Virus record (IMG/VR): IMGVR_UViG_3300032223_002784
Span: 27,985 to 91,984 of that record
Source: a virus
DNA length: 64,000 nt
Reading direction: 5' to 3' (one strand)
The notes beneath the pieces were generated by a model. The model saw only the letters and a list, made by a program, of their open reading frames with translations. It searched no databases and was not told the origin of the DNA. This document shows, one piece after another, positions 61,669-64,000 of the stretch. Numbering within the stretch: the first letter of the stretch is position 1; each line of letters opens with the position of its first letter. A program made the translations under genes and the position numbers.

Positions 61669-62437
61669 TGATATTGTAAGCGATATGTATTATGGTCCTG
61701 TTGAAGACTCATATGGTATTCATACCAACAAGTATATTTTTTTTATTCCTAAGTCTGGTTTTGCACATCTTAAAAAAGGTTTAGAAGCACATTATATCCA
61801 AACAGAGTATCTCCTTGAATGTACTGATGAAGAATTGTCTGAATTAGGCAAACAAAGACCTAGGAGATCTTCTCTAGAGGAAGTTAACTATCAGATAGAG
61901 AGAAAAGAGTTTGATCTAGCTCATATAAAGGCTAGTAATCTTATTTCTAGACTCCCCGTCTTTTCACAATCAAGAAATCGCAATGGAAAACAACATATTG
62001 CTGATAAAAGATGGAGAGATGCTCTTAAAAATGAAAATCCAAAGGTTTTATCTCTAATTGAATACTACAAATATGAAGAAAATTTTATAAAAGCTACTTT
62101 TCCTGATGTAGAATGGACAAAAGGCACATTTGCTATCTCTCCATGCCATATTTATCCTGCTAAAAAGGATAGAGGAGAAGATTCTTGGACTCCCGACAAA
62201 ATTTTAAGAGATTTAAGCCTTGTAAATAAATGTTTTGATAAAATTTCAGCTTCTCCACTAAATGGAAAGCATGCTGTATCTATAGAAGATGCAAATATTG
62301 CTCTTGATTATCTTGATCTATTTGATTTTAATGATCTTTCTGTATCCCGCCAAGCTTTGTATCTAATTTTATCTAATAGAGTCGTTGATGGCTTCTATGA
62401 AAACTTTGATTTTACAGATATTGATCTAGGAATTTAA
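61658..62437 (+). CDS. Hypothetical protein, 259 residues
   Basis: I do not recognise this protein. It is mixed alpha/beta and charged. It has SDIVSDMYYGPVEDSYGIHT at the start and a basic stretch (GKQRPRRSSLEEVNYQIERK), then IEYYKYEENFIKATFPDVEW and SPCHIYPAKKDRGEDSWTPD. It is the last gene of the thyX operon. Its stop overlaps the end of a minus-strand mini-gene by three bases. No membrane segment or metal-binding cluster is visible. Confidence 0.7.
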   Translation: MRISDIVSDMYYGPVEDSYGIHTNKYIFFIPKSGFAHLKKGLEAHYIQTEYLLECTDEELSELGKQRPRRSSLEEVNYQIERKEFDLAHIKASNLISRLPVFSQSRNRNGKQHIADKRWRDALKNENPKVLSLIEYYKYEENFIKATFPDVEWTKGTFAISPCHIYPAKKDRGEDSWTPDKILRDLSLVNKCFDKISASPLNGKHAVSIEDANIALDYLDLFDFNDLSVSRQALYLILSNRVVDGFYENFDFTDIDLGI

Positions 62438-62568
62438 AAATATAATTCTTTTTCTTCATACAATTTTATTTTCAGCTCTTTTGCGTGTAATCCACAATAT
62501 CTAAACACTCCATATATACAATGGATTGTTTCCAGATGTTCCCGCCAACATTTATCACAAGATTGCAT
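62434..62568 (-). CDS. 44-residue zinc-finger protein, probably leaderless
   Basis: A small minus-strand gene convergent with the thyX operon. The protein starts MQSCDKCWREHLETIHCIYG and contains C4-x2-C7 and C25-x2-H28 (RYCGLH), a compact CxxC...CxxH zinc finger, then a charged helix (KELKIKLYEEKELYF). There is no ribosome-binding site. A -10 TACAAT (62580-62575) puts the transcript start on the ATG at 62568, so a leaderless message is likely. Its -35 region is poor and is followed upstream by a CRP-like palindrome at about -44. A small DNA-binding regulator or host-takeover protein would fit. Recognition is by motif. Confidence 0.6.
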   Translation of the reverse strand: MQSCDKCWREHLETIHCIYGVFRYCGLHAKELKIKLYEEKELYF

Positions 62569-62604: not shown

Positions 62605-62620
62605 TGTGACGTGCGTCACA
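62605..62620. promoter_or_regulatory. CRP/GlxR-like site 1 (perfect)
   Basis: TGTGACGTGCGTCACA matches TGTGA-N6-TCACA exactly, with the arms extending to seven bases. Its centre is about 44 bases upstream of the expected start of the minus-strand zinc-finger transcript, close to the place where class II CRP activators sit over a weak -35. It is also about 204 bases upstream of the P1 start. Confidence 0.6.
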
Positions 62621-62744
62621 CTAATTTCAAATTGATCAAAATGTTAATGGCCAATTATTTTGTATGATACACTTTTTGAAAAGGCATTCCAAAATTTTAT
62701 AGTGCGCCCGAAATGTCCGTTTTGATACCATTCCACGCTCATAA

Positions 62745-62760
62745 TGTGGTCTATATCACA
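62745..62760. promoter_or_regulatory. CRP/GlxR-like site 2
   Basis: TGTGGTCTATATCACA, one mismatch from TGTGA-N6-TCACA. It is preceded by ATAA like site 1. The centre is about 64 bases upstream of the expected P1 start, near the class I CRP position. Confidence 0.55.
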
Positions 62761-62780
62761 TAAAAAAGGCTGTTTTGGGC

Positions 62781-62810
62781 TTGACTTTTGTCTATTCGTT
62801 CTGTTATACT
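62781..62810 (+). promoter_or_regulatory. Promoter P1
   Basis: TTGACT (62781-62786), 18 bases ending in TGT, and TATACT (62805-62810). This is a strong promoter with both a -35 and an extended -10. The start would lie near 62817. Confidence 0.75.
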
Positions 62811-62822
62811 TACAGTATTGAA

Positions 62823-62843
62823 AGTTGATAAAGGTTATCAACT
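62823..62843 (+). promoter_or_regulatory. Leader inverted repeat of P1 (operator or hairpin)
   Basis: Nine-base arms around AGG, with core TTGATAA-AGG-TTATCAA at 62825-62841. It begins 14 bases after the -10 and ends before the AGAAAGG ribosome-binding site. The same core at the same distance occurs after P2. Confidence 0.65.
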
Positions 62844-62866
62844 AGAATAAAAGAAAGGTTCATAAA

Positions 62867-63079
62867 ATGAACACTATATATAATGAAATTAAAGATGAGT
62901 TTGGTGTAGAGGCTACTAGTGCCTACTATAAGACTCCCGTTCTACCTGTGCGTATCGCACAGCGTATAAATAATAAATACCCTAGCGAAATGGGTTCATC
63001 TCGTTTCACTACTACTCTAAATCCAAAGGCTGTGCTTATCGCTAAGCGATACATGAGCCTAGTAATGGGTGTCAAGTAA
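62867..63079 (+). CDS. Small unknown protein, first gene of the P1 operon
   Basis: A 70-residue basic protein, MNTIYNEIKDEFGVEATSAY to AKRYMSLVMGVK. It has a short helix at each end and a basic middle (YKTPVLPVRIAQRINNKYPS). AGAAAGG lies nine bases before the ATG. Its codons use more C and G at third positions than the structural genes. The stop overlaps the next start (TAATG). Early small basic proteins often target host factors, but no family is recognised. Confidence 0.75.
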   Translation: MNTIYNEIKDEFGVEATSAYYKTPVLPVRIAQRINNKYPSEMGSSRFTTTLNPKAVLIAKRYMSLVMGVK

Positions 63080-63189
63080 TGACTATCCTTACCTATATCC
63101 TTCGTACTATCATGGTGCTATCTATAGTGCCACTCTCTCTACTTATGTATGCTATGTATCAAGATGTAAAGACATGGGGTAATGAATAA
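63079..63189 (+). CDS. 36-residue single-span membrane protein
   Basis: A tiny protein, MTILTYILRTIMVLSIVPLS followed by LLMYAMYQDVKTWGNE. About 20 hydrophobic residues form one membrane span, with a short polar end. It starts and ends with TAATG overlaps, so it is translated only through coupling with its neighbours. Function unknown; it could alter the host membrane. Confidence 0.65.
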   Translation: MTILTYILRTIMVLSIVPLSLLMYAMYQDVKTWGNE

Positions 63190-63359
63190 TGAAAAGACTT
63201 ATAGTTATAGTGATGATAGCACTACTCATCCCTACCCCCGCCTATGCTAAGACATACCATACACCTAAGCACACAGTGCAACACTATGGATATACAGTGC
63301 ACAGATCTACACATATATATTGCCCATATACTGGTTGCAAGAAATCACTAAAACAATAA
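63189..63359 (+). CDS. 56-residue secreted protein
   Basis: It starts MKRLIVIVMIALL and has a clear signal peptide ending in PAYA, with cleavage after residue 20. The mature part has 36 residues, rich in His, Tyr and Thr, with two cysteines (YCPYTGC) that may form a disulfide or bind metal with the histidines. It is the last gene of the P1 operon and is followed by a terminator. It is exported to the cell surface, so superinfection exclusion or metal binding are possible roles. Neither is shown. Confidence 0.7.
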   Translation: MKRLIVIVMIALLIPTPAYAKTYHTPKHTVQHYGYTVHRSTHIYCPYTGCKKSLKQ

Positions 63360-63366
63360 TAACGCA

Positions 63367-63397
63367 GGGCGTGTCTACTTGACATGCCCAGCTTTTT
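63367..63397 (+). terminator. Intrinsic terminator of the P1 operon
   Basis: GGGCGTGTC (63367-63375) pairs with GACATGCCC (63381-63389) with one G-T pair and a five-base loop. AGCTTTTT follows. It lies eight bases after the operon's last stop. Confidence 0.85.
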
Positions 63398-63423
63398 GTG
63401 TCGGCGCACTCGGGCGTGTCGCA

Positions 63424-63439
63424 TGTGACTAAGAACACA
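63424..63439. promoter_or_regulatory. CRP/GlxR-like site 3
   Basis: TGTGACTAAGAACACA, one mismatch from TGTGA-N6-TCACA. The centre is about 85 bases upstream of the expected P2 start, that is about two helical turns further than sites 2 and 4 are from their promoters. Confidence 0.5.
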
Positions 63440-63442
63440 TAC

Positions 63443-63460
63443 GCTGAGCGTCTCAGTATT
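63443..63460. repeat. Short inverted repeat upstream of P2
   Basis: CTGAG-CGT-CTCAG within the gap between the P1 operon terminator and P2; flanking ATAC/GTAT extends the pairing with one bulge. It may be a regulator site or chance. Confidence 0.35.
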
Positions 63461-63480
63461 TGGAATTACTGGCTAGTAAG

Positions 63481-63510
63481 TTGAAATTTGTCAGTACCCT
63501 ATGCTATAAT
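63481..63510 (+). promoter_or_regulatory. Promoter P2
   Basis: TTGAAA (63481-63486), 18 bases ending in TGC, and TATAAT (63505-63510). From GTCAG in the spacer to the start region it is nearly the same as P3. Confidence 0.78.
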
Positions 63511-63524
63511 TCCATTATAAGAAA

Positions 63525-63541
63525 TTGACAAAGGTTGTCAA
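63525..63541 (+). promoter_or_regulatory. Leader inverted repeat of P2
   Basis: TTGACAA-AGG-TTGTCAA, beginning 14 bases after the -10, exactly as in P1. The loop AGG is the same, and one base pair differs in each arm (C-G here, T-A in P1), a compensatory change that keeps the pairing. Confidence 0.65.
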
Positions 63542-63566
63542 AGATTTATAAAGAAAGGAATTCAAA

Positions 63567-63779
63567 ATGAATTCACTAAATGAAATAACAGTAGTAGTAG
63601 AACCTACTCACCCTATGGCTAGTAGCAATACTAAGTCCCCTTTCCTATTCCGCCTTTCTAATGGTAACTACATTAGCCGTATGGCGTATGTCTATCTTGT
63701 AGCCTCTGAGGGTCTTATCTCTCACCGCTATCTTTCCCCTAATGAAAGTAAGTGGGTATTTGAACAGCGTGTGGCGTAA
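63567..63779 (+). CDS. Small unknown protein of the P2 unit
   Basis: A 70-residue protein, MNSLNEITVVVEPTHPMASS, then PFLFRLSNGNYISRMAYVYL and ESKWVFEQRVA. It looks like a small beta sheet with a basic face. AAAGAAAGG lies eight bases before the ATG. Its C-terminal codons overlap CRP-like site 4. It may be distantly related in size and setting to the first P1 gene, but the sequences are not similar by eye. Confidence 0.75.
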   Translation: MNSLNEITVVVEPTHPMASSNTKSPFLFRLSNGNYISRMAYVYLVASEGLISHRYLSPNESKWVFEQRVA

Positions 63780-63785
63780 GTCACA
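63770..63785. promoter_or_regulatory. CRP/GlxR-like site 4
   Basis: TGTGGCGTAAGTCACA, one mismatch from TGTGA-N6-TCACA, the same TGTGG half-site as site 2. It spans the end of the preceding gene, and its centre is about 65 bases upstream of the expected P3 start. Confidence 0.55.
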
Positions 63786-63807
63786 CCGCCCAACACGGCG
63801 TGTCGTG

Positions 63808-63836
63808 TTGATAATGTCAGACCCCTATGCTACAAT
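63808..63836 (+). promoter_or_regulatory. Promoter P3
   Basis: TTGATA (63808-63813), 17 bases ending in TGC, and TACAAT (63831-63836). The segment GTCAG(A/T)(C/A)CCC-TATGCTA is shared with P2, as is TTCCA(C/T)TATAA downstream. No leader inverted repeat is present. Confidence 0.75.
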
Positions 63837-63869: not shown

Positions 63870-64000
63870 ATGACTTACAGTTTTGATACAAAAACAGACC
63901 GCTGGGCTGAACTAGCAGACGAATACCAATCTATGTTAGATGAACTAAAGGAACTAGATACTGAAAGCGTATTTATTCCAACCGCAGATTTTGACGAGGA
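63870..64000 (+). CDS. Small unknown protein of the P3 unit, cut by window edge
   Basis: Only the first 43 residues are visible: MTYSFDTKTDRWAELADEYQ, then an acidic helical part (SMLDELKELDTESVFIPTAD). AGAGA lies a few bases before the ATG. It is acidic and helical, unlike the proteins of P1 and P2. No family recognised. Confidence 0.65.
   Translation, partial: MTYSFDTKTDRWAELADEYQSMLDELKELDTESVFIPTADFDE

Follow-up and report, generated by a model that had tools for sequence, protein, structure and literature searches.

Four palindromes of the TGTGA-N6-TCACA type lie at one end of a viral contig, and their sequence and placement make it likely that they are operators for a GlxR/CRP-type regulator of the host, most likely activating the promoters of small genes. 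Similar sites recur, at whole turns of the helix 5' of small-gene promoters, in a large family of freshwater viruses of probable actinobacterial hosts. By such an arrangement, the virus would probably let a host regulator set the expression of its own genes. The analyzed stretch of DNA (the window) consists of the last 64,000 bases of this contig, which is 91,984 bases long. The preliminary description had placed four sites with no or one mismatch at 62605, 62745, 63424 and 63770, and all four positions proved to be correct. The sites, promoters and open reading frames (ORFs) of the region are as follows (window coordinates):

62583-62575, minus strand: TGCTACAAT, extended -10 belonging to a putative divergent promoter with a weak -35, directed toward an ORF at 62434-62568 on the minus strand
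62605-62620, no strand: site 1, TGTGACGTGCGTCACA, a perfect TGTGA-N6-TCACA with 0 mismatches
62745-62760, no strand: site 2, TGTGGTCTATATCACA, 1 mismatch
62781-62810, plus strand: promoter P1, TTGACT-N18-TATACT with an extended -10; 58 bp from the centre of site 2 to the end of the -10
62867-63079, plus strand: 70-aa ORF of P1, present in 26 related loci
63079-63189 and 63189-63359: ORFs after the 70-aa ORF of P1
63424-63439, no strand: site 3, TGTGACTAAGAACACA, 1 mismatch
63446-63479, plus strand: spacer module between site 3 and P2, GAGCGTCTCAGTATTTGGAATTACTGGCTAGTAA, class B, which recurs at a spacing of 77-79 in relatives
63481-63510, plus strand: promoter P2, TTGAAA-N18-TATAAT with an extended -10; 79 bp from the centre of site 3 to the end of the -10
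63567-63779, plus strand: 70-aa ORF of P2
63770-63785, no strand: site 4, TGTGGCGTAAGTCACA, 1 mismatch, overlapping the stop codon of the ORF before it
63795-63805, plus strand: conserved element just 5' of the P3 -35, ACGGCGTGTCG, class A module
63808-63836, plus strand: promoter P3, TTGATA-N17-TACAAT with an extended -10; 59 bp from the centre of site 4 to the end of the -10
63870-63998, plus strand: ORF of P3, running off the contig end

The distances from site centre to -10 end had earlier been given as 57.5, 78.5 and 58.5 bp for P1, P2 and P3, respectively; these values hold and become 58, 79 and 59 bp when measured from boundary to boundary. The first small-gene unit is closed by a strong terminator-like hairpin at 63367-63389 (GGGCGTGTC..GACATGCCC, followed by a T run), the stem of which has the word GGCGTGTC in common with the promoter element.

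An important question is whether such a group of sites could be a product of chance. Only 0.065 sites with at most one mismatch are expected in the final 1,484 bp, where four are present, and this number was reached in none of 3,000 simulations; likewise, none of 200 simulated genomes contained four sites in any 1,200-bp stretch. Sites with two mismatches are not enriched across the whole window (35 found against 41.7 expected), so the signal is a local cluster of near-perfect sites. Chance origin was rejected on the grounds of this local simulation together with the permuted palindromes and comparative data described below. Site 2 fits the inner consensus with its central TA, and site 1 lacks the central TA. 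Two more sites were found at the opposite end of the 92-kb contig (C1:1261 and C1:1360), and a promoter lies at a distance of 48 bp from the second. Converging genes in that region leave a gap of 636 bp (C1:976-1612, also L004:976-1612) that harbors two CRP-type sites and a forward promoter facing no sense gene, from which a non-coding RNA is possibly transcribed.

Relatives of the 70-aa protein encoded 3' of site 2 were identified in 26 viral loci, most of which possess one or two such sites upstream. In the closest relative (L011), site 2 and its flanks are kept, and exactly 10 extra bases separate the site from the -35 of the promoter. Because circularity had to be avoided, viral contigs were scanned with the core promoter alone (ACGGCGTGTCGNNTTGACTTTT), a pattern free of CRP information, and at least 120 stretches matched. 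Among the matches listed, 89 of 119 distinct promoters had a site with at most one mismatch upstream and 106 had one with at most two, while the reversed pattern, used as a control on the same promoters, gave 0 and 10, respectively. The distance between site and -35 among these matches was 29 bp in 68 cases and 39-40 bp in 31, with almost nothing else. Removal of redundancy at 70% identity left 64 promoters among the matches listed, with offsets of 29 (44 times) and 39/40 (17 times). The logo of their 64 sites reads TGTG(A/G)TgTAaATCACA, with T6 at 61%, the central T at 50%, the central A at 88% and A11 at 84%; in the half-site nearer the promoter, the CAC core does not vary. All these frequencies describe loci retrieved via the small protein or one promoter class and are not those of all phages.

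The same regularity appears in a larger set of 607 non-redundant extended -10 promoters, in which 147 site-promoter pairs were counted, while 29 permuted palindromes gave 2 pairs on average. The distances peak at 47/48, 58, 68 and 77/78 bp, with a period of 10.1 bp (R=0.81; the highest null value was 0.30). In addition, GTGA-N6-TCAC is represented in the phage loci by 214 non-coding copies, while every other spacer length gives 0-14. Thus, the helical register between sites and small-gene promoters noticed earlier is borne out by both the 10.1-bp period and the 10-bp difference between orthologous loci; the sites recur at the promoters of related phages, and their enrichment exceeds that obtained from simulations, the reversed pattern and permuted palindromes alike.

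For site 1, a class II arrangement at a divergent promoter with a poor -35 had been proposed. The poor -35 is indeed seen, and the site lies 38 bp from the minus-strand extended -10. The class II reading was dropped because this spacing does not recur in relatives: 38 bp was found in 2 cases among 920 non-redundant site-directions, against a background of approximately 2.

The promoters themselves share further components. The element ACGGCGTGTCG, in either orientation, is fixed immediately 5' of the -35 (TTGACTTTT); viral contigs show this in at least 120 stretches, and it constitutes a second conserved element. Among the matches listed, approximately a dozen core promoters without a CRP site possess a direct repeat, GTTAY-N6-GTTAY, with an 11-bp period (loci L119, L123, L132, L138, L166, L171, L188, L205, L206 and L211). 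This repeat is present in 150 copies in the phage loci, against 8-42 at other spacings, and is absent from the window; it may represent a second regulator slot.

The leaders of the genes beginning at 62867 and 63567 contain a hairpin (TTGATAAAGGTTATCAA and TTGACAAAGGTTGTCAA) with compensating changes between the two. A second hairpin encloses the start codon of each gene (GTTCAT..ATGAAC and GAATTCA..TGAATTC), and the coordinates of the leader hairpins in the window are 62823-62843, 62855-62872, 63524-63541 and 63556-63573. Across all early genes, start-codon stems with 6 or more pairs exceed a swapped control only about twofold. A nested RNA-like module was also noticed in 5' leaders of the related loci, consisting of an outer stem, an internal loop (TGAGC / CAAATAA) and an inner stem, sometimes with 2-3 levels. 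It is located, for example, at L013:2520-2610, L017:4231-4306 and L015:7912-7950, with approximately 100 cases in L006-L031 and L111-L230. Both stems were present in 106 elements, against 0-1 for shuffled loop words, and many of the stems covary. A search of Rfam at the gathering threshold returned only tRNAs; by E-value, just a weak match at chance level was obtained.

Which bacteria could supply a regulator for these sites? The major capsid protein (MCP) of the phage shares approximately 55% identity with its counterparts in large Streptomyces phages, and its ribonucleotide reductase (RNR) is approximately 66% identical to those of Streptomyces phages. WhiB, which serves as a marker for actinobacterial phages (PMC6802176, PMC10202952), is encoded on this contig and exceeds the family cut-off in 14 of 26 such phage records, this one included. 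WhiB and the Streptomyces-phage-like MCP and RNR make an actinobacterial host very probable. The contig order of capsid, protease, portal, RNR, glycosyltransferase, thyX and small ORFs is close to that of Stanwilliamsviridae (Wofford and Faust), which share the MCP, protease, portal, RNR, glycosyltransferase, thyX and many small ORFs toward the genome end; on these homologous core genes and their like order, the phage resembles the family, and the likeness is a resemblance only. Unlike this phage, Wofford and Faust do not possess CRP-like sites with at most one mismatch in the first 16 kb of each, and in the rest of Wofford no CRP-like sites were noted near promoters. The lack of such sites in Streptomyces relatives of similar gene order is a point against the reading as host GlxR operators. 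Searches of cultured phages for the promoter block and the small protein revealed neither, and the core promoter had no match in the bacterial genomes searched, so no prophage or binned contig pointed to a host.

Candidate hosts were chosen on rhodopsin, small genome size and G+C, and they are candidates rather than proven hosts. Of 395 genomes from the class of Mycobacterium, 65 had a rhodopsin match, and 39 small ones (1.2-1.8 Mb) were carried forward; these rhodopsin-bearing genomes fit freshwater actinobacteria. The candidates whose loci were read are mostly of 41-51% G+C. An earlier sample around G012, comprising small genomes without rhodopsin and with few GlxR matches, was set aside. 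The GlxR query was an approximate sequence that matched Corynebacterium GlxR at up to 93% identity. With this query, a GlxR orthologue was identified in 38 of the 39 candidate hosts at 51-56% identity, and the recognition helix SRETVNKAL, identical to that of GlxR, was present in 29 of 30 orthologues. A cyclic-nucleotide-binding domain (PF00027) was not detected in 12 phage records, including this phage, which rules out a phage-encoded CRP in those records. The assignment of the sites to the CRP/GlxR type in an actinophage is supported, as the candidate hosts carry an orthologue with the same recognition helix.

The further proposal that the phage reads the cAMP or carbon state of the host found no support: class III adenylate cyclase (PF00211) was absent from all 39 candidate hosts, while the same search was positive in C. 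glutamicum. The cAMP-pocket motifs of GlxR were present in the candidate hosts, with FGEL in 29 of 30 orthologues and PRT(S/A) also in 29 of 30.

Coding DNA of the candidate hosts provides another line of evidence, with the adjacent spacer lengths as internal controls. Three genomes with 1.6 Mb of such DNA contain no GTGA-N6-TCAC at all, while the other spacers between 0 and 15 give 13-40 pooled copies each; spacers of the same codon phase predict 18.8 copies (P about 7e-9). The dip at N6 is weaker in a fourth genome with higher G+C (3 against 8-10). Avoidance confined to spacer 6 points to a resident host regulator of such specificity and could serve as an independent genomic readout of regulator specificity in bacteria that are difficult to grow. 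Recognition of this bipartite palindrome by a restriction-modification system was rejected, because it predicts the opposite of a motif that is enriched at phage promoters and avoided in candidate hosts.

With 8 copies, where the reversed pattern gives 14, perfect sites are rare and unenriched in the 39 candidate host genomes, and the regulon of the host CRP on this motif thus looks small; enrichment in the intergenic DNA of one candidate host was also tested, with a negative result. Six of the eight perfect sites fall at two recurrent intergenic places, and their spacers differ: four have parB on one side and an amidase gene on the other, and two lie in a second shared gap. The four sites next to parB are situated at position about 1501 of L383-L386, from four candidate hosts, and may represent a conserved GlxR site.

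The following mechanism can be proposed. The operators would sit within a stereotyped family of sigma-A-type promoters with an extended -10 that drive small, presumably early, phage genes, with the site on one helix face about 48, 58, 68 or 78 bp from the -10. The interval between the site and the -35 would usually contain one more conserved element, either ACGGCGTGTCG in direct or reverse-complement form or the GCGTCTCA/TTACTnGnnAGTAA module. Present in the cell before the phage DNA enters, the host regulator would bind the sites and help to recruit host RNA polymerase by class I-like activation, perhaps together with a factor that binds the middle element. We infer regulator binding, activation over repression and early timing from this arrangement. 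If transcription starts 7 nt past the -10, the site centres would lie at -54.5, -64.5, -74.5 and -84.5. In E. coli, class I CRP sites are phased at -61.5, -71.5 and -82.5. With the start at 7 nt after the -10, the phase is approximately 3 bp off these optima, which suggests that the start sites differ or that an additional factor is involved at the middle element.

With TTGACT and an extended -10, the core promoters are strong in themselves and may need no activation. A host GlxR/CRP protein bound at the sites could instead repress or delay promoters that look capable of working unaided, as silencing of incoming DNA or as a timing brake. CRP proteins both repress and activate, and several promoters of phage T1 are under repression by cAMP-CRP (PMC6737242). 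We nevertheless regard repression as unlikely here, since the sites are upstream of the -35 and do not overlap the -35, the -10 or the start, which are the usual positions of repressors; moreover, sites acting as a brake would be expected to be lost, yet the tight register is kept over many lineages.

That tight phase also speaks against the idea that numerous sites on replicating phage DNA act as a sponge, titrating the host regulator off its own targets, for which helical phase to promoters is unnecessary. There are hundreds of consensus-like sites in the phage loci and almost none in the candidate host genomes, as a sponge would have it; however, only about six such sites, near the contig ends, are present in this phage, and we consider this explanation improbable.

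Mycobacteriophages of cluster A carry stoperators, an example of repeated operators of a phage repressor. Phage repressors typically act on stereotyped operators repeated at many promoters, and a phage-encoded regulator outside the CRP family might read the same palindrome in an early circuit or in superinfection immunity; this is very improbable, given that the consensus matches CRP/GlxR in its arms, spacer and central TA, that the 12 phage records contain no cNMP-binding protein and that the candidate hosts avoid exactly the spacer-6 palindrome, pointing to a resident host binder.

The reading as activating operators for host GlxR/CRP can be extended, tentatively, to a combinatorial promoter code in freshwater actinophages. 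A core (the extended -10 with ACGGCGTGTCG or the alternative module) might be combined with interchangeable phased slots for host regulators, either GlxR/CRP or OmpR/PhoB-type proteins on 11-bp direct repeats. In streamlined hosts, GlxR might be cAMP-free or respond to another ligand, with infection tuned to host physiology by a rewired regulator. This extension is possible at best and is put forward as speculation. If binding is true, viruses of probably very abundant freshwater bacteria put early-type genes under host GlxR/CRP, and uncultured phages would offer a connection between the state of the host and the outcome of infection that can be tested. The promoter signature would then be usable for host assignment, and the natural one-turn spacing variants would form a series for studying CRP-type regulators in actinobacteria.

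Among known systems, the GlxR operators of C. glutamicum and CRP class I promoters have TGTGA-N6-TCACA with a central TA, upstream of the -35 and in one-turn steps. The phage sites share the palindrome, the central TA, the place 5' of the -35 and the helical-turn steps; they differ in being located on a phage, in the approximately 3-bp phase offset relative to E. coli and in candidate hosts without class III adenylate cyclase. GlxR/CRP promoters of actinophages were not encountered in the open-access literature searched; phage promoters under host CRP (T1), NtcA and PhoB (cyanophages) are already known or predicted. Repression by cAMP-CRP is known for pir, dam and recE of phage T1 (PMC6737242); as far as the available part of that source goes, phage promoters are likewise directly under host CRP and infection is tied to host state, a relationship that is here predicted from sequence, but the host is E. 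coli, the effect is repression, few promoters are concerned and no phased promoter family is described. For T4-like cyanophages, sites were predicted in 16 of 16 genomes, at 1-16 per genome, for NtcA, which is also a CRP-family host regulator (PMC3037559); the motif is GTA-N8-TAC, the signal is nitrogen, the sites are spread across many functions, and no analysis of helical phase is given in the part of the source available. Cyanophage genes under host PhoB provide a case in which lytic promoters answer a global regulator of the host and binding is demonstrated by gel shift (PMC10976474). That system differs from the phage sites in its response regulator, Pho boxes and phosphate signal, and the 11-bp direct-repeat site type found in relatives of our phage may be analogous to it.
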